A stretch of 49,497 nt of DNA from a virus, in IMG/VR virus record IMGVR_UViG_3300018084_000005, positions 1 to 49,497 of that record; one strand, given 5' to 3'. The notes under the pieces are model-generated. The model ran no database searches. It had not been told where the DNA came from and was given only the letters and a program-made list of their open reading frames with translations. Shown here one piece after another: positions 10,982-30,932 of this stretch. Every line of letters starts with the position of its first letter. Within the stretch, counting starts at the first letter, position 1. The translations under genes were made by a program, and so were the position numbers.

Positions 10982-12055
10982 ATGGAATTCTCCATGGACG
11001 CATGGGCTGCGCGCAAGGCCAAGTATGCGGCCGAGCTCGCTGCCCGCGATGTGTGGACCGAGTTCGAGCCCGGCGACGTCGTCGGCTACCGCGCGAGCGG
11101 TGCGCCCATCCTGTTCGCAGCCGGTGGTGCGGCGGACAACTTCGACGACTGGATCCCGGAGGAGACCGACTCCGCCGTCATCCAGCGCGTCGCGCAGGTC
11201 TCGGCCGTGGAGTTCTTCGGGCGTCACACCCCGATGTCCACCGCGACCAAGAAGGAGCCGCGCTCCTCGGGCATGGAGGTCAAGACCCTCGGCAAGTCGG
11301 GTCAGTACACCTCCAGCAACGACGAGAACGACGACGTCCTGCTCACCGCGCGGAAGCACACCGGCCTCCTGACCGTGGCGGAAGAGGACCTGAACGACTC
11401 TGCGGCGGACATCATCGCCACCAAGGAGCGCGACTGGGCCACCTCCTACGCCAAGTACTTCGACAACGCGACGCTCGCGACCTCCGCTGCGGAGAACGCG
11501 CCGACCGTCCCGTACACGTCGGTGTACTACGCGCTCACGCAGACCAACGCGACCACCGGCTACACGGCCAACGACAACATCGTCGGCACCGTGACGGTCG
11601 GCGAGGTCACCTACGACGAGCTGTCCGAGGCGCTCGGTCGGTACGAGGACGGCGACTACTTCGACGAGTCGATGTCGGTCGTCATCGCGCACCCGACCTT
11701 CCGCAAGCAGCTCCGTCAGATCAAGGACGACCAGGGCCAGCCGATCTTCGTGCGGGGTCAGGGCGGTGACGCCGGTACGCCGGACACCGTCTTCGACATC
11801 CCCGTCCGTTGGTCGAACGGCTGCCGCCTGTCCGCCACGGCCTCTGCCGCTCCGGCCGGTGCCCCGATCATGGTCTTCGGCAACCGCGACTTCCTGATCG
11901 TCGGCGACCGCTCGACCGTCGAGACCCAGCCGATCCCGGCCGCGATCTCCACGACCGACGAGGCCAACGTCAAGATCCGCGTCCGCAAGGGCTTCGCGAT
12001 CGGCCACGAGAAGGCGTTCGCCGTCCTCATCGACGACGGCTCCGCCCTGAGCTGA
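10982..12055 (+). CDS. major capsid protein (HK97 fold)
   Basis: 357 residues, within the usual range of HK97-type capsid proteins without a fused scaffold domain. The segments SAVIQRVAQVSAVEFFGRHT, then KHTGLLTVAEEDLNDS (spine helix region) and AHPTFRKQLRQIKDDQGQPI are typical, as is the ending in which beta-strands lead to FAIGHEKAFAVL. ATG 10982 follows GGAAGGAG. The gene is preceded by scaffold and its own leader and followed by a strong hairpin terminator, consistent with high, separately controlled expression. Confidence 0.93.
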   Translation: MEFSMDAWAARKAKYAAELAARDVWTEFEPGDVVGYRASGAPILFAAGGAADNFDDWIPEETDSAVIQRVAQVSAVEFFGRHTPMSTATKKEPRSSGMEVKTLGKSGQYTSSNDENDDVLLTARKHTGLLTVAEEDLNDSAADIIATKERDWATSYAKYFDNATLATSAAENAPTVPYTSVYYALTQTNATTGYTANDNIVGTVTVGEVTYDELSEALGRYEDGDYFDESMSVVIAHPTFRKQLRQIKDDQGQPIFVRGQGGDAGTPDTVFDIPVRWSNGCRLSATASAAPAGAPIMVFGNRDFLIVGDRSTVETQPIPAAISTTDEANVKIRVRKGFAIGHEKAFAVLIDDGSALS

Positions 12056-23335: not shown

Positions 23336-26300
23336 GTGGCAATCCCCGATGGCGTCGAGACCGTAACGATCAACAGCTGCACGCCGTTGACGTTGCCCGA
23401 CGGAACCCTCATCCGTGGCCACATTCGATTCGTGGCACCCGACCTCAATGTGATCGGCGACGAGGACTTCATCTTCGGTGGAGAATCCCCGGCTGAGCTC
23501 TGCCATGGCGAGTTCAGCATCACGCTGGTTCCGCCGGACGCGACTGGCATCACTCCGACCGGATGGACCTACACGGCCATCGCGGAGTTCACCAACGCGC
23601 CCGGCTGGACGCGCTACGTCGACATCACCAAGGACAACCCGACCGTCTGCTTCGACGACGTGATCGTCCTCACGCCTGGAGACATCACCAACCCCGACAC
23701 GACGTTCGTCCGCAAGGCGGGCGACACCATGACCGGGGCTCTCATCCTGTCCGGTGACCCGTTGGTTGATCTGCAGGCTGCCACCAAGCAGTACGTGGAC
23801 AACGCCTTCGATCCGGCTCAGTTCGTGGACGTCGCAGGCGACACCATGACTGGTGAGCTCGTTCTGTTCGGCAACCCCACGCAGGCTCTCGGAGCCGCGC
23901 CGAGGCAGTACGTCGACCAGGCAGAGGCGGACGCCATAGCTTCGGCTACGGCGACAGCGGCGGCCGAGTCGGTCAGCCTCTCAGGCGATACGATGACAGG
24001 CCCCCTCGTGCTGAGCGGAGCCCCGACAATCGGTAACGGGGCGGCGACGAAGGACTACGTTGACACCGGAGACGACGCCCGCGTGGCCGTCGCCGGAGAC
24101 ACGATGACCGGACAGCTGGTCCTGTTCGGAGATCCGACGGTTGCTCTTGGTGCTGCTCCGAAGCAGTATGTGGATGCACAGGCGGCGGCTGCACAGGCGG
24201 CAGCGGAAGCGACTGCGGCAGCCGAGTCCGTCTCGCTCTCCGGCGACACGATGACCGGGGCACTGGTGCTCAACGCGGATCCGGTTGTTGCCCTCGGTGC
24301 GGCCACGAAGCAGTTCGCAGAAGCAGAGGCCGACGCTGCTCAAGCTGCTGCCGCTGCTGAGTCCGTCTCGCTCACTGGTGACACCATGTCAGGCGAGCTC
24401 GTGCTCTTCGGCGATCCCACGGTTGCACTCGGAGCCGCCCCCAAGCAGTACGTGGACGCCGCTCAGGCTGCTGCCGAAGCGACCGCAGCTGCGGAGTCGG
24501 TCTCGATCTCGGGCGACACCATGACCGGTCCGCTGATCCTGAACGCCGATCCGACGGTCGCTCTCGGCGCGGCGACCAAGCAGTACGTGGACCAGGCCGA
24601 GGCCGACGCGATCTCCACGGCGACGGCAACGGCGGCTGCAGAGTCCGTGAGTCTGACCGGCGACACGATGACGGGCGAACTCGTCTTGTTCGGCGACCCG
24701 ACCGTGGCTCTGGGTGCGACCCCGAAGCAGTACGTCGACGGACTGGACGCGCAGAATGTCAAGCTCACGGGCAACCAGACGATCGCTGGGATCAAGACGT
24801 TCTCCTCGATCCCCGTTCTGCCCGGTTCGGACCCGGTGGCTGCGAACGAGGCAGTGCGCAAGGCGTATGTCGACACGCTCGATGCACAGAACGTTAAGCT
24901 CACTGGTGCGCAGTCTGTCGCTGGCCAGAAGACCTTCACCGACGCGCTCGCGGTCGAGGACGGCTCGGACGTCAACCTGTTCACGGTCGAGCAGACCAAC
25001 ACGGGTGCTCTCGCCGGGGTCATGAAGCTCATCGCCGGGCAGTCGATCCAGTCGGCCTTCCTCGGTACGTACCAGGGTGCTGCAACCAACTCCTGGGCGA
25101 TCCGGGCGGACGGCCGGTACGAGGCCGGAGACGGCACCCTCGCTCGCGACGCGCTCATCGCTCGCGTCGCGGCTGGAGTCTGGCAGGTCACGTCGCAGAT
25201 CCGAGCTTCCGGGGCTGCTCCGCTGGACGACGCCGACCTGACGCGCAAGGACTACGTCGACGGGCTCGACGCGGAGAACGTCAAGCTCACCGGTGCACAG
25301 AGCATCGATGGCGTCAAGACGTTCACGAGCATCCCGGTGCTGCCGGCAAGCGACCCCACGACCGACAACGAAGCCGTCCGCAAGTTGTACGTGGACACGG
25401 GCGACGATGCTCGGGTCGCGGTCGCGGGCGACACGATGACGGGCTTCCTGACGCTCAACGCCGATCCGACGGATCCGCTCCACGCTGCGACCCAGCAGTA
25501 TGTCGACCAGCAGGCGGATGCGGCTCAGGCCGCCGCTGAGGCCACGGCTGCTGCAGAGTCGGTGTCCGTCACGGGCGACACGATGTCTGGAGAGCTGATC
25601 CTCTTCGGCGATCCGACCGTGGATCTTGGGGCCGCTCCCAAGCAGTACGTCGACGACACGATCATCTCCGAGTTCCTGTCGACCCTCGGACTCTCGACCG
25701 GCGTCATCCTCGGTGGCGAGTTGGAGGTCAACGGCGTCGACGACACGATGGTCGACATCAGCGACACGGTCGGCGTGATCGTGGACTACACAACGACGCC
25801 GACGACTCCGACCATCACCAAGGTCTCGTTCCCTGCGGACACGATCACGATCACCGATCTCGTCGAGCCCATCACCTGGCTCCTTCTGGACTCGACCGGA
25901 ACGGTAGTTCAGCAGACGACGCGCCCCACCAATACGCAGCGCCGCTCGCACCTGGTACTCGGGGGCGTACTGATCGGTGGCGGCGGCATCATCGCCGACC
26001 AGAGCCTGCCGAACTACCTTCCGCAGACGCTCAACCAGCTGTACGACCTGATGGACGCGCTCGGTCCGTTCAACATCACGGGCAACCTCCTCACGCCCTC
26101 CGGCGCGAATCTGCAGCTGGCCAAGACTGCCGGCACCGTGTTCGACCGCGCGTTCAACCACTTCGCCGGACCGGTACTCACGGCCGATCCGCACGTGTCC
26201 GAGACGGCTGCACAGAACCCGGTCACAATGCGCTACGTGACGCAGACGCCCGCTGCGCCTGTGGCCACGGTTACGGTTGTGGACCCGACGATGTACGACG

Positions 26301-27835
26301 TTGCTGGAACGATCACGGCGATCCCTGGCGGATCCGGCGTGTCGACGATCCAGCGCGTCTACATCACGCCGCTCAACGACGTGACGCAGCAGGTCGTGAT
26401 CCAGTACGGCCAGACCGCATACGCAAGCCTGGACGAGGCGATCGCCAACATCGGTCGTCAGAGCTTCGTGCGTAACCCGAATCTGCAGGACTCCGTGCTC
26501 CTCGGATATGTCGTCATGAAGAAGTCCGCCACCAACCTGTCCGTTACTGCGGACGCCCGCGTCATCCAGGCGGCGAGGCTCAGCGGGAACGCGGCCGGTT
26601 CGGGAGACAGCCTCTCGCTGGCTCTGCTCCTCACCGGCGGAACCATGACGGGCGATCTGGTGCTGGCTGGCGACCCGAACGCGGCTCTCGAGGCTGCCAC
26701 GATGCAGTACGTGGATGCGGGCGACGCCACGGCCGTCAAGCTCACGGGTGCACAGACCGTGGCTGGTGTCAAGACGTTCTCCAGCATCCCGGTCCTCCCG
26801 GCCTCGGACCCGACAACGGGCAACGAGGCGACGCGCAAGACGTACGTGGACAACCTGGACGCGGCCAACGTCAAGCTCACGGGAGCGCAGACGATTGCGG
26901 GCGTGAAGACGTTCTCGTCGATCCCCGTGGGACCGGCCTCGGACCCCACGACCGACAACCAGCTGACTCGCAAGTTCTATGTCGATGCGGGCGACTCTGC
27001 CAACGCCTCGGACATCGCCACGCTCGACGGCGAAGTCGTGAAGCTTACCGGGGACCAGGCTGTTGCAGGTATCAAGACCTTCTCGTCCATCCCGGTCGGC
27101 CCCGCATCCGACCCGACCACCGACAACCAGCTCACGAGGAAGCTGTACGTCGACAACGGCGACGCAGCAGTCCAGTCCAACGTGGACGACGTGGTCTCGG
27201 ACCTGGCAGCCCTCGACGCGGCGGTCGTCAAGCTCACTGGCGATCAGTCGGTTGCCGGCATCAAGACATTCAGCTCGATCCCGCTCCTGCCGGCATCCAA
27301 CCCCACCACTGACAACCAGGCCACCCGCAAGCTCTACGTCGACACGCTTGACGGAGCCAACGTCAAGCTGACCGGCAACCAGTCGATCTCCGGCGTCAAG
27401 ACCTTCTCAAGCGGCATCAGCGTCACGGCCGGTCTCGGATCGGACAGGTTCGCTCGCAAGACCGCCAACACATCAAGGGCAAGCACGGTAACCACGACCG
27501 TTGACCCGCATCTTGTTGTTGCAGTTGAGGCCAACGCAACGTACAACGTGCTGGCGAACCTGGTTTGGCGACCCTCTGGATCAGGAGGATTCCGATTCAA
27601 GTTCACGGGTCCTTCCGGTGCAGAGATGGTCTACATGGACAATGACAGTGGTTCGGTTCTGGCAATAAACACCGAGCTCACATTCAACGTGACAACTGGA
27701 GCCAGCATCGGTGGCACGCTCGTCACCGCAGGAACTGCCGGCAACCTCTCGCTGTTCTGGGCTCAGAACGTCTCCAATGCAACGAACACCACCCTCAATG
27801 AGCACTCCGCACTCTGGCTCCGTCGGGTAGCATAG
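23336..27835 (+). CDS. tail fibre protein with two interspersed repeat families
   Basis: 1499 residues; likely the receptor-binding fibre. After a beta-rich N-terminal domain (1-120) come about 11 units of type A (GDTMTGELVLFGDPTVALGA then AAPKQYVD) and about 8 of type B (VKLTGAQTVAGVKTFSSIPV then RKLYVD), matching known phage tail fibre repeats. Between about residues 520 and 640 a B unit is interrupted by a different beta domain, and about 770-1080 is a non-repeat module (FPADTITITDLVEPITWLLL). The last 130 residues form a separate tip domain. GTG 23336 follows GGAGGAG. Located after lysis genes, which is unusual for structural genes but common in this phage type. Confidence 0.85.
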   Translation: MAIPDGVETVTINSCTPLTLPDGTLIRGHIRFVAPDLNVIGDEDFIFGGESPAELCHGEFSITLVPPDATGITPTGWTYTAIAEFTNAPGWTRYVDITKDNPTVCFDDVIVLTPGDITNPDTTFVRKAGDTMTGALILSGDPLVDLQAATKQYVDNAFDPAQFVDVAGDTMTGELVLFGNPTQALGAAPRQYVDQAEADAIASATATAAAESVSLSGDTMTGPLVLSGAPTIGNGAATKDYVDTGDDARVAVAGDTMTGQLVLFGDPTVALGAAPKQYVDAQAAAAQAAAEATAAAESVSLSGDTMTGALVLNADPVVALGAATKQFAEAEADAAQAAAAAESVSLTGDTMSGELVLFGDPTVALGAAPKQYVDAAQAAAEATAAAESVSISGDTMTGPLILNADPTVALGAATKQYVDQAEADAISTATATAAAESVSLTGDTMTGELVLFGDPTVALGATPKQYVDGLDAQNVKLTGNQTIAGIKTFSSIPVLPGSDPVAANEAVRKAYVDTLDAQNVKLTGAQSVAGQKTFTDALAVEDGSDVNLFTVEQTNTGALAGVMKLIAGQSIQSAFLGTYQGAATNSWAIRADGRYEAGDGTLARDALIARVAAGVWQVTSQIRASGAAPLDDADLTRKDYVDGLDAENVKLTGAQSIDGVKTFTSIPVLPASDPTTDNEAVRKLYVDTGDDARVAVAGDTMTGFLTLNADPTDPLHAATQQYVDQQADAAQAAAEATAAAESVSVTGDTMSGELILFGDPTVDLGAAPKQYVDDTIISEFLSTLGLSTGVILGGELEVNGVDDTMVDISDTVGVIVDYTTTPTTPTITKVSFPADTITITDLVEPITWLLLDSTGTVVQQTTRPTNTQRRSHLVLGGVLIGGGGIIADQSLPNYLPQTLNQLYDLMDALGPFNITGNLLTPSGANLQLAKTAGTVFDRAFNHFAGPVLTADPHVSETAAQNPVTMRYVTQTPAAPVATVTVVDPTMYDVAGTITAIPGGSGVSTIQRVYITPLNDVTQQVVIQYGQTAYASLDEAIANIGRQSFVRNPNLQDSVLLGYVVMKKSATNLSVTADARVIQAARLSGNAAGSGDSLSLALLLTGGTMTGDLVLAGDPNAALEAATMQYVDAGDATAVKLTGAQTVAGVKTFSSIPVLPASDPTTGNEATRKTYVDNLDAANVKLTGAQTIAGVKTFSSIPVGPASDPTTDNQLTRKFYVDAGDSANASDIATLDGEVVKLTGDQAVAGIKTFSSIPVGPASDPTTDNQLTRKLYVDNGDAAVQSNVDDVVSDLAALDAAVVKLTGDQSVAGIKTFSSIPLLPASNPTTDNQATRKLYVDTLDGANVKLTGNQSISGVKTFSSGISVTAGLGSDRFARKTANTSRASTVTTTVDPHLVVAVEANATYNVLANLVWRPSGSGGFRFKFTGPSGAEMVYMDNDSGSVLAINTELTFNVTTGASIGGTLVTAGTAGNLSLFWAQNVSNATNTTLNEHSALWLRRVA
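23703..27430 (+). repeat. in-gene repeat array coding the A and B fibre units
   Basis: DNA-level similarity between units (for example GGCGACACCATGACCGG-like starts) follows from the protein repeats. A units dominate the first third and B units the last third, with one A unit (GGTMTGDLVLAGDP) heading the final B array. Such tandem homology allows unit loss or gain by recombination. Confidence 0.75.
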
Positions 27836-27877: not shown

Positions 27878-28816
27878 GTGTCAGAGCTGAAGCTGTACAT
27901 CCTTGGCTATCCCCAGGAGTTCCGAGGGAACCACTGGAAGCGGGATATCGAGAAGGCTGCTCTCAAGCTCGGATGGGACGTAACACACAGGGCGGCTCAG
28001 GCCGCTCGAACGGAAGAGGTCCTGCGTGAGTGCAAAGACGCGGACCTCTTCCTGTGGTTGCGGACGCATCGCAACGATCCGCACGACGACGCATACGCGA
28101 TGCTCCGCAAGATCGAGGACGCGGGTGTTCCGACCGTCGGCATGCACATGGACTTGTACTGGAACCTTCCGCAGCGAGAGCCGTACGTGAACATCCAGCA
28201 GAACCCCTGGTGGTCCTGCCAGCGCGTCTACACGGCCGACGGGGGCCACGCGGCGGAGTTCGCTGAGCGGGGTATCAACCACTTCTGGATGCCGCCTGCA
28301 ATGGGCGACGAGCACTTCGGGCTCGCCGAGCTCCCGGTCAGGTGCCGCTTCAAGAAGCGCTACGTGTTCGTCGGCAGCAACTCGCGCGGCATCCACGGCG
28401 ACCACCGAGCTAAGCTGCTCCAGTGGGCTCGCAGGCGGTACGGTCCGGGCTTCCAGCACTACGGACAGCACAACAAGGTGTACAACTCGGAGCTCAGTCA
28501 GGTGTACGCCGTGGCCCGCGTTGCGTTCGGAGACTCGGCACCGGCCGACTACTACTGGTCGGACCGCATCCCGACGACGATGGGCAGGGGCGGGGTGCTG
28601 GCCTACCCCAACACGCCGGGGCTCGCAGAGCAGGGCTACGACGACACCAACATGATCCTGTTCGACAGGTACGACTTCGACACGCTGAGCTACAAGGTCT
28701 CGGCCCTCGACACCAATGAGCTCGCAGCCATGCGAGAGGCCGCGCTCACGGTCACGGAAGAACGACACATGTGGCGGCACAGGCTGCTGCAGATCAAGGA
28801 AGAGGTCCTGGGATGA
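27878..28816 (+). CDS. CgeB-like glycosyltransferase (GT-B type)
   Basis: 312 residues. The N-terminal half (ADLFLWLRTHRNDPHDDAYA, then VGMHMDLYWNLPQREP) and C-terminal half (KKRYVFVGSNSRGIHGDHRA, then MGRGGVLAYPNTPGL) resemble the Glyco_trans_1_2/CgeB family, which transfer an activated sugar. The Gly-rich GRGGVLAYP loop is the usual nucleotide-sugar site. GTG 27878 starts ten bases after a hairpin. It begins a cassette with a nucleotidyltransferase and a methyltransferase and follows the tail fibre, so modification of virion protein or of host glycan are the leading ideas. Acceptor unknown. Confidence 0.72.
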   Translation: MSELKLYILGYPQEFRGNHWKRDIEKAALKLGWDVTHRAAQAARTEEVLRECKDADLFLWLRTHRNDPHDDAYAMLRKIEDAGVPTVGMHMDLYWNLPQREPYVNIQQNPWWSCQRVYTADGGHAAEFAERGINHFWMPPAMGDEHFGLAELPVRCRFKKRYVFVGSNSRGIHGDHRAKLLQWARRRYGPGFQHYGQHNKVYNSELSQVYAVARVAFGDSAPADYYWSDRIPTTMGRGGVLAYPNTPGLAEQGYDDTNMILFDRYDFDTLSYKVSALDTNELAAMREAALTVTEERHMWRHRLLQIKEEVLG

Positions 28817-29463
28817 AGGTCATCGTCGCTGCTTCCGGCAGCCAGAACAAGTGGGGTCGACATCTCGGCGTCCCTTCGCATCTCGCTCCGCTGACGCGCC
28901 ACGACGGGCAGCCTCTCATCGAGCGAACCATCGAGCAGCTGTCTGCCTACGGCCACGAGGTGCACCTCCTCACGCCGAATGACCCGGCATACGTAGGACT
29001 GCCGGCAACCCGGCACATCATCCAGGAGTTCAAGCAGAGCGAGTTCGAGGCGAGCCGTCCGCTGTGGGATCCGGAGGGCCGGACGATCCTGTTCTTGGGC
29101 GACGTGTACTTCAGCGACCAGGCCATCGAGCGCATCATGCACTTCGGCAAGCGGCAGTACATGGCGTTCGGCCGGTTCGGTCCGAGCCAGATCACCGGGA
29201 CGCCGTACGGCGAGCTGTTCGCTGCCAGCTGGTACGGCGAGCACATCATCCAGATGGACGCGTATCTGCGCAACGTGCACAAGCTCCGCGCCGACGGCAA
29301 GATCACGCGGCCTCCCGGATGGATGCTCCTGCGGTCCTGGCAGCGGACCCCGATCGCTCGCCACAAGGTGACGCCGAAGCACTTCATCGAGATCAACGAC
29401 GAGACCGACGACATCGACTTCCCGGTGGACTACGAGCGCCACCCCGCAACGAGGAGCAACTGA
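28813..29463 (+). CDS. nucleotidyltransferase-like protein (GT-A/NTP-transferase fold)
   Basis: 216 residues. The start MKVIVAASGSQNKWGRHLGV continues PSHLAPL and follows the G-x3-R-x-P(K)xLxPL opening of NTP_transferases that make NDP-sugars, and TILFLGDVYFSD resembles the metal-binding strand. The lysine that usually follows the proline is replaced by Ser-His, so activity towards a normal sugar phosphate is uncertain. ATG 28813 overlaps the glycosyltransferase stop by four bases, so the two are coupled. Alternative: an inactive or glycosyltransferase A relative. Confidence 0.6.
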   Translation: MKVIVAASGSQNKWGRHLGVPSHLAPLTRHDGQPLIERTIEQLSAYGHEVHLLTPNDPAYVGLPATRHIIQEFKQSEFEASRPLWDPEGRTILFLGDVYFSDQAIERIMHFGKRQYMAFGRFGPSQITGTPYGELFAASWYGEHIIQMDAYLRNVHKLRADGKITRPPGWMLLRSWQRTPIARHKVTPKHFIEINDETDDIDFPVDYERHPATRSN

Positions 29464-30113
29464 TGGGCACCGTGTTCGTGGACTTCCCGTCCCTGGTCAC
29501 CAATCTCGGCATCACGCCGACCCACATCATCCACGTGGGAGCGCACAGGGGCGAGGAGGTTCCGTTCTACAAGGAGGCCAACGCCGGACACATCACGCTC
29601 GTCGAGCCGATCCCCGAGCTCGCTCAGGTCCTGCGGGATCGGTACGAGGAGGACACGACAGTCACCGTCGTCGAGAGCGCCTGCGGCCCTGCCCCGACCA
29701 CCGCCACGTTGAGCATCATGCAGAAGACGAACCTGTCCACTCTCGTGACGCCGCAGAGCTCCGACCTTCTTCACCGAGTCATCCAGGTCTCCGTGGTCCG
29801 GCTCGACAGCATCCAGGGCGACGCGAACGTGGCCGTGATCGACGCACAGGGCATGGAGCTCCAGGTACTCGGAGCCGCCGACCTGACGCAGTTCGATCTC
29901 ATCATCACGGAGTGCTGCACCAAGGACGACCCGACCATCGCCGTCGGCTACGACGAGACGGTAGAGTTCATGGAAGCCAACGGCTTCCGCGAGGCCAACA
30001 AGTGGTCGCGCGACTACCAGTGGATCAACAAGTGGTCGCGAGGCAGCCGGGCTCGCTTCCACAAGGGCGGCGGAGCCGTGTACGACGCGGCCTTCATCAA
30101 GGAGGATGCATGA
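29463..30113 (+). CDS. FkbM-family methyltransferase
   Basis: 216 residues. The segment HIIHVGAHRGEEVPFYKEA is the family's SAM-binding motif I, LVEPIPELAQVL the acidic end of the second strand, VVESACGP the third, and VVRLDSI then VAVIDAQGMELQVLGAAD match the conserved FkbM pattern VRLDS...IKIDVQGxE. Known members O-methylate sugars or polyketides. Overlaps the previous gene by one base (TGATG). The family and the cassette suggest methylation of the sugar added by the neighbouring glycosyltransferase. Confidence 0.85.
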   Translation: MGTVFVDFPSLVTNLGITPTHIIHVGAHRGEEVPFYKEANAGHITLVEPIPELAQVLRDRYEEDTTVTVVESACGPAPTTATLSIMQKTNLSTLVTPQSSDLLHRVIQVSVVRLDSIQGDANVAVIDAQGMELQVLGAADLTQFDLIITECCTKDDPTIAVGYDETVEFMEANGFREANKWSRDYQWINKWSRGSRARFHKGGGAVYDAAFIKEDA

Positions 30114-30319
30114 CAACTGCAGACATCGTGTGGGGGCTTCTGCTCCTCGCTGGCGTCGTCTACGAGATCGCGGCCATCCGCTCGAAGCGCTGGGAGGACA
30201 CCCTCTCCCAGACCACTCGCAAGTGGTTCCACACCAAGACGGTGGCCGGTGCCTGGACCTTCGGCGTCCTCTGGGTCGGCTTCTCCGGCTGGTACCTCTG
30301 GCACATCCTCTGGCAGTAA
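30110..30319 (+). CDS. small membrane protein, 69 aa
   Basis: Two hydrophobic segments (IVWGLLLLAGVVYEIAAI and TFGVLWVGFSGWYLWHILW) are joined by a basic charged loop. ATG 30110 overlaps the methyltransferase stop (ATGA) with GGAGG upstream. Similar two-helix proteins occur as second holins or superinfection-related proteins in actinophages; here it closes the sugar cassette, so a membrane anchor for that pathway is also possible. Confidence 0.65.
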   Translation: MTTADIVWGLLLLAGVVYEIAAIRSKRWEDTLSQTTRKWFHTKTVAGAWTFGVLWVGFSGWYLWHILWQ

Positions 30320-30353
30320 TTCTGCAGAAGGGTAGCCAGCGTTCTCGAGATGG

Positions 30354-30362
30354 GGTATAGTT
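30354..30362 (+). promoter_or_regulatory. candidate -10 element GGTATAGTT before last late gene
   Basis: One mismatch to GGTANNATT; the hexamer TATAGT is close to a canonical -10. It lies 43 bases before ATG 30405 and is directly followed by a leader hairpin. Confidence 0.5.
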
Positions 30363-30404: not shown

Positions 30405-30932
30405 ATGGACCGCACCGAGTTCGAGAACGCTGCTTACTCCGGCTACGTCAGCCGTGGCATCGGCGACACGGACGGCTGGTACCACCCGATCGACAAGACC
30501 GCGTTCGTCGACGCCATGCGCCTGCGGGTGCCGGTCATGCCGGAGGACTTCACCCGCTACAACGACACGGAGTTCCGCCCCACCGAGCAGCAGTGCCGCG
30601 AGTACAACCAGACCTTCACCAGCAAGCCGAAGGTCCTGCGCCTCGCGGTCAAGGTCGCCGAGGGCTGGAGGACGGTCGAGGTTGCCGGCACGAAGGACGC
30701 TCACGAGGTGCTCGGCCGCATCGCCGCCACGGTCGGCTTCACGGAGGCCCGCCTGGAGGACTACGCCAGCGTCGAGAACGGCTACTGGGTCCCGCAGATC
30801 CGCTACATCGCCGGTGAGTTCGTCGGCAACAACAAGGCGGTCACCGACAAGAAGCGGATCCGCCGGGGCGACCGATTCGGCAAGTACGCCGAGCTGCTGA
30901 AGTGGAGCGAGTCGAGCGACATGAGCATCTGA
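30405..30932 (+). CDS. hypothetical protein, 175 aa, last late gene
   Basis: No recognised family. It starts MDRTEFENAAYSGYVSRGIG, is aromatic-rich in the first half and basic at the end (KKRIRRGDRFGKYAELLKWS). It has its own promoter-like motif, leader hairpin, strong AGGAGG site and following terminator, so it is a separate well-expressed unit. That arrangement suggests an independently timed gene, perhaps early, rather than a structural part. Confidence 0.7.
   Translation: MDRTEFENAAYSGYVSRGIGDTDGWYHPIDKTAFVDAMRLRVPVMPEDFTRYNDTEFRPTEQQCREYNQTFTSKPKVLRLAVKVAEGWRTVEVAGTKDAHEVLGRIAATVGFTEARLEDYASVENGYWVPQIRYIAGEFVGNNKAVTDKKRIRRGDRFGKYAELLKWSESSDMSI

Follow-up and report, generated by a model that had tools for sequence, protein, structure and literature searches.

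Virion glycosylation has been proven in only a few phages, and with enzymes other than those described here. The mycobacteriophages Che8 (gp108-110), Corndog (gp38) and Myrna encode their own glycosyltransferases for capsid and tail proteins (PMC12363180, PMC13313380), and both the capsid and the tail of Che8 are glycosylated (reviewed in PMC12363180). Che8 is the closest proven system to the cassette analysed here, which lies in a linear virus record of 49.5 kb (the window, 49,497 nucleotides in full). Che8 gp108 carries a TylF domain, placing a sugar-type methyltransferase domain in the same gene block as glycosyltransferases, as in the window. The enzymes themselves appear unrelated, however: Che8 gp108-110 belong to the GT2/TylF, GT2 and GT25 families, in contrast to the GT4-like glycosyltransferase (GT), nucleotidyltransferase-fold protein (NT) and FkbM methyltransferase (MT) of the window, and comparison of these Che8 enzymes with GT, NT and MT gave no HMM match and BLASTP E-values of 0.18 or worse. 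Furthermore, gp108-110 include no nucleotidyltransferase and are located at the right genome end rather than behind a capsid or fibre gene.

A second likeness is found in the Type A / b-type flagellin glycosylation islands of C. difficile (cd0240-cd0244) and P. aeruginosa PAO1 (pa1088-pa1091), which combine a glycosyltransferase, a nucleotidyltransferase (CD0242/PA1090) and a methyltransferase for a bulk structural protein, a single filament protein. They differ in holding a phosphatase-like enzyme (CD0241/PA1089) and a CDP-dependent phosphotransferase (CD0244), neither of which is present in the window cassette. In these islands the nucleotidyltransferase is taken to serve a CDP-linked non-sugar group, an assignment that is itself a model (PMC10714395, PMC11833859). 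Within the open-licence literature we found neither a paper on the present cassette nor a report of virion glycosylation in its phage group.

Layout and conservation of the cassette

The window DNA matched the phages Rooney, Gibson, Wentworth, Dryad, Lizz, PHTowN, ShakeNBake and phiRKBJ001 at ~80% identity over two thirds of the searched stretch. Together with the more distant Yara, these belong to Streptomyces cluster BN, whose members are described as lytic (PMC8852317); by this DNA similarity the window is a Streptomyces phage with kinship to cluster BN. The four coupled genes that the original prediction had placed behind the tail fibre were located there (Table 1), with one small correction, the ATG of the membrane gene being at 30110. 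The fibre gene and GT are separated by 42 bases, and the following genes overlap by 4 bases (GT/NT, ATGA), 1 base (NT/MT) and 4 bases (MT/membrane gene); a search of the + strand across this stretch revealed no terminator-like site. The cassette comprises only GT, NT and MT, plus the membrane gene in some phages, and since neither a sugar kinase nor a mutase is encoded in the window cassette, the host must supply the substrate. Downstream, a sigma-70-like promoter match was observed at 30333-30361 (chance expectation 0.5), followed at 30405-30932 by a conserved 175-aa protein with no Pfam match that is kept in the examined cluster BN isolates and Yara.

Table 1. Features of the window around and within the sugar cassette
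Feature	Position	Strand	Description
Major capsid protein, HK97 (PF05065)	11153..12028	+	E 1.9e-22; 16 kb upstream of cassette
Long tail fibre	23336..27835	+	1499 aa, GDTMTG / BppL_N repeats; phrog_16641 tail fiber, PF18338 8e-42
GT, GT-B fold, GT4-like (PF13524)	27878..28816	+	312 aa; PF13524 5e-7, phrog_28745, pLDDT 88.8
NT (nucleotidyltransferase-fold protein)	28813..29463	+	216 aa; phrog_33187, pLDDT 94, full-length GlmU/IspD/LicC/RmlA/KdsB matches
NT N-terminal signature, K13-W14 to S22-H23	28849..28881	+	K13 = GxGxR Arg place, S22 = P-K Lys place
NT D97 of LGDV motif, putative metal ligand	29101..29103	+	Asp in 63/64 relatives
NT C-terminal DDID (D199-D202), putative second metal site	29407..29418	+	D200 64/64, D202 63/64, D199 60/64
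MT, FkbM family (PF05050)	29463..30113	+	216 aa; PF05050 3.6e-12, TIGR01444 1.2e-12
Small membrane protein	30110..30319	+	69 aa, two hydrophobic stretches; accessory

The GT-NT-MT order behind the fibre was kept in all nine sequenced cluster BN phages in GenBank, including Yara, and the trio was also found in BN-like uncultured contigs, one of which (L017) ends inside MT. In GenBank the BN genes are already annotated as glycosyltransferase, hypothetical protein or nucleotidyl transferase, and methyltransferase, so the cassette genes are not new in themselves. Comparison with relatives revealed dN/dS values of 0.13-0.17 for GT, 0.15-0.17 for NT and 0.20-0.29 for MT; all three are under purifying selection. 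The membrane gene, with values of 0.40-0.48, was present in the window, L005/L014, L006/L015, L016, L021 and Yara and missing from eight of the nine BN isolates, and this patchy distribution does not support its earlier inclusion as a core part of the cassette. We likewise rejected its product as a fourth core enzyme or flippase, as it is patchy and reached no family cut-off (PF24202, 17.9 bits vs 27).

GT, NT and MT each showed a strong match to a PHROG family. The original calls of a CgeB-like glycosyltransferase and an FkbM methyltransferase were borne out by profile searches, in which GT scored 30.2 bits against PF13524 (curated cut-off 25) and MT 47.2 bits against PF05050 (cut-off 22.7) and 48.5 bits against TIGR01444 (cut-off 37.7). 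The predicted GT model (pLDDT 88.8) adopts a GT-B fold, and its top Foldseek matches were GT-B/GT4 enzymes (E 1e-11 to 4e-8) such as 7qsg, a methylmannose polysaccharide mannosyltransferase that ranked first, GlgM and BshA. MT is probably a sugar O-methyltransferase: it matches the full FkbM domain, while differing from described FkbM sugar O-methyltransferases in forming a distinct phage subfamily (phrog_36045).

Fold and active site of the nucleotidyltransferase

By profile search the window NT fell short of PF12804 (14.2 bits vs a cut-off of 27, E 0.05). Its homologues in L039, L055 and L085 exceeded that cut-off (28-35 bits), and these intermediates tie the window protein to the PF12804 superfamily. 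The structure prediction proposed for this protein gave an AlphaFold model of high confidence (pLDDT 94, pTM 0.91), for which both Foldseek and VIA-align returned nucleotidyltransferases throughout the top 50, matching over the whole chain (KdsB, RmlA, GlmU, IspD, LicC, MurU; Z 15-16, 166-197 residues aligned). On the evidence of this model, the protein has a real nucleotidyltransferase fold; a GT-A glycosyltransferase was judged unlikely, with no glycosyltransferase in the top 50 of either fold search, and a thymidine kinase chain matched by the NT profile (1xx6, E 7e-4) was inconsistent with these folds and was treated as a chance match. Relative to MobA-like and sugar-1-phosphate nucleotidyltransferases (PF12804; GlmU, RmlA, IspD, LicC), the whole-chain fold and the positions of the metal-site Asp residues are shared, whereas the signature Lys is variable in the window NT family and sequence similarity is very low. 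The metal-binding role of these Asp residues is putative and taken from the family.

The Ser-His pair at residues 22-23, to which the original prediction drew attention, is real; the placement of K13 and S22 in the signature comes from a weak alignment to M. tuberculosis IspD. Among 64 distinct NT domains, residue 13 was K or R in 63 and residue 14 was W in 63, in contrast to residue 22, which was S in 38, K in 16, R in 9 and N in 1. This last distribution requires 6 changes on the NT tree, where the K22 clade (L020/L022/L031) is sister to an S22 clade (L023/L025/L029/L034) in the same gene context. Since the site varies among close relatives while the other active-site residues stay constant, loss of the lysine was rejected as a mark of new chemistry, and the proposal that Ser-His signals an undescribed route is not upheld.

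The NT family is essentially phage-restricted. A cellular origin was considered and rejected: homologues were detected in 2 of 392 sampled Streptomyces genomes (both known prophage carriers) and in 2 of 396 Actinomycetota genomes. A Roseibium plasmid protein (L012:5947-6669) with 22% identity to the window NT adjoins a glycosyltransferase and an ABC transporter and may be related, as a bacterial counterpart, to the GT-NT pair. At L035:1894-2568, an NT that has lost the LGDV motif (D97 to N) adjoins an FkbM gene and an HK97 capsid gene, and is possibly a decaying copy.

Association of the NT gene with varied partners and capsid genes

Scans of viral contigs were started from GT and from MT, with NT left out of the search. 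An NT gene was nearby in 44 of 47 close GT loci, a count that includes near-identical copies (L073, L074, L076-L079); of the three loci without NT, L067 and possibly L081 lie at contig ends, and L080 has 2.6 kb of downstream sequence. Around MT, NT was nearby in 24 of 25 loci and GT in only 17. The distant GT relatives (L088-L097 and L099, 30-37% identity; L098 is a cut contig) were without NT, so the GT-NT link is specific to the close GT clade. In L120, L121 and L123, NT is linked to MT without GT. From these gene neighbourhoods, the NT gene is seen to be the hub of the cassette. The trio, whose absence elsewhere would have counted against the original prediction, thus co-occurs widely and is normally docked to capsid genes.

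It is quite unlikely that the NT-like protein does not function as a nucleotidyltransferase and has turned into a second glycosyltransferase or a binding partner in the service of GT. The window protein and many relatives do lack the signature lysine, and NT travels with GT and is sometimes fused to or placed beside other glycosyltransferase domains (L028, L039, L085). The top fold matches are nonetheless all nucleotidyltransferases, the metal-site Asp residues hardly vary across 64 diverged family members, even close relatives differ in whether they have the lysine, and the association with MT alone argues against a partner devoted to GT.

The other parts of the cassette are exchanged. Methyltransferases include FkbM types, TylF in L026, where an NAD sugar epimerase is added, and rhamnosyl-O-methyltransferase/CmcI in L027 and L061; capsid-linked cassettes carry further GT2-like enzymes. 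NT lies within longer proteins in L055 and L085, and in L039 it follows a GT-like stretch in one reading frame. In the phage contig L028, an 859-aa protein (L028:5142-7721) with LicD, NT and rhamnosyltransferase-like stretches is encoded between terminase-like and portal-like genes and adjoins a CTP-transferase-like gene. This LicD fusion and its neighbour, the occurrence of LicC, a CTP:phosphocholine cytidylyltransferase, among the close NT folds, and the gene content of the C. difficile and P. aeruginosa clusters would all suit an arrangement like that of the flagellin islands, with NT activating a non-sugar phospho-compound (CDP-linked) that is hung on a GT-placed sugar and MT methylating that moiety rather than the sugar. 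We consider this unlikely: the window cassette lacks the phosphoserine-phosphatase-like gene and the CDP-dependent phosphotransferase, and the TylF and rhamnosyl-type methyltransferases and the epimerase of related cassettes all act on sugars.

Searches for capsid families covered 46 contigs and identified a major capsid gene in 26; in 25 of these it precedes the cassette on the same strand at a distance of 25 bases to 2.7 kb (an upstream extension of the NT frame by the ORF caller makes the printed gap of L111 negative). Among the capsid-bearing contigs of at least 20 kb, 16 of 17 were capsid-docked, the exception being the BN-type phage L043. The docked capsids belong to the P22 coat, HK97 and phrog_777 families, with phrog_1328 in L072 and phrog_1650 in L085. 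Most capsid-docked copies are metagenomic contigs, and since contigs are mutually related these counts are not counts of independent events; the tree needs at least 5 context changes among 4 classes. Directly behind the cassettes of L020 and L052, one intact ORF (L020:7290-8294, L052:6239-7324) fuses a galactosyltransferase-like domain (phrog_1721) to a head-tail connector domain (phrog_2322), which seems to be a structural protein carrying its own glycosyltransferase. Capsid docking together with the hub role of the NT gene is what is new here.

In the window, by contrast, 16 kb separate the cassette from the capsid gene, and the fibre is the sole adjacent structural gene; L021 and Yara also have the fibre upstream, as in BN. 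The fibre-linked NT genes formed a single clade (support 96) among capsid-linked ones in an unrooted tree, on which some context labels were set by similarity to tested loci. This single clade suggests one relocation of the cassette. Residues 857-975 of the Yara fibre (gp27, L009:10200-14081) form a glycerophosphodiester phosphodiesterase domain (PF03009, 6e-23); no such domain was detected in the fibre of the window.

A proposed role in virion decoration

We propose that the cassette is expressed late and that its products make a sugar, link it to virion proteins and methylate it, a reading to which we assign a probability of roughly 0.6. NT would make the activated donor, a sugar or sugar derivative linked to NDP or CDP; the GT-B glycosyltransferase would transfer the sugar to a virion protein, here most likely the neighbouring fibre product or the capsid, both of which are candidate acceptors in BN; and the FkbM enzyme would O-methylate the sugar, the cassette presumably being read together with the late structural genes. 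We infer catalysis, donor, step order, acceptor and late expression from sequence, predicted structure and gene order. Decoration of the virion is the best reading because the cassette is placed behind varied capsid genes, lies in the head operon of prophages and uses interchangeable sugar methyltransferases; the 16-kb distance to the capsid gene in the window, the lack of a sugar kinase or mutase, the absent NT lysine and the 3 close GT loci without NT are points against it. DNA modification, suggested by a thymidylate synthase gene nearby in relatives, is not favoured for a cassette that sits among late structural genes and has a sugar-type methyltransferase.

Phage-carried glycosyltransferases commonly alter host glycans, and the original prediction had named both virion proteins and the host surface as possible targets. 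The first target is retained as the best reading. Modification of the cell surface, for receptor masking or superinfection exclusion, is decidedly unlikely, even with a small membrane protein behind the cassette in some members: prophages carry the cassette within the head operon, with capsid genes on one side and head-tail genes on the other, a location in which it should be silent in the lysogen, whereas host-surface conversion would need lysogen expression. Cluster BN is moreover described as lytic, the conserved genes include no flippase or other transporter, the membrane gene is patchy, and the GT-connector fusions place a glycosyltransferase-like domain on a particle component.

Since actinobacterial phages and prophages repeatedly carry the gene set behind capsid genes from several unrelated families, particle decoration may be far commoner than known. 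The hub position of NT suggests that the phages contribute to donor synthesis themselves and do not draw solely on NDP-sugars of the host, and with cluster BN phages in culture, decoration is directly testable. A broader picture, which we regard as tentative and doubtful as a whole, is a mobile capsid glycosylation island with a phage-restricted NT hub that would dock behind unrelated capsid genes, swap methyltransferases and glycosyltransferases and bring an unusual donor (possibly CDP-linked) to the shell; it would be the phage counterpart of the flagellin glycosylation islands, moved once to the fibre in cluster BN. In L027 and L063, the gene directly behind NT (L027:6636-7310, L063:5549-6223) has a weak PHROG hydrolase match and a P-loop-like N-terminus (IVGTGRSGTRF) reminiscent of sulfotransferases, and the decoration in these phages may also be sulfated.
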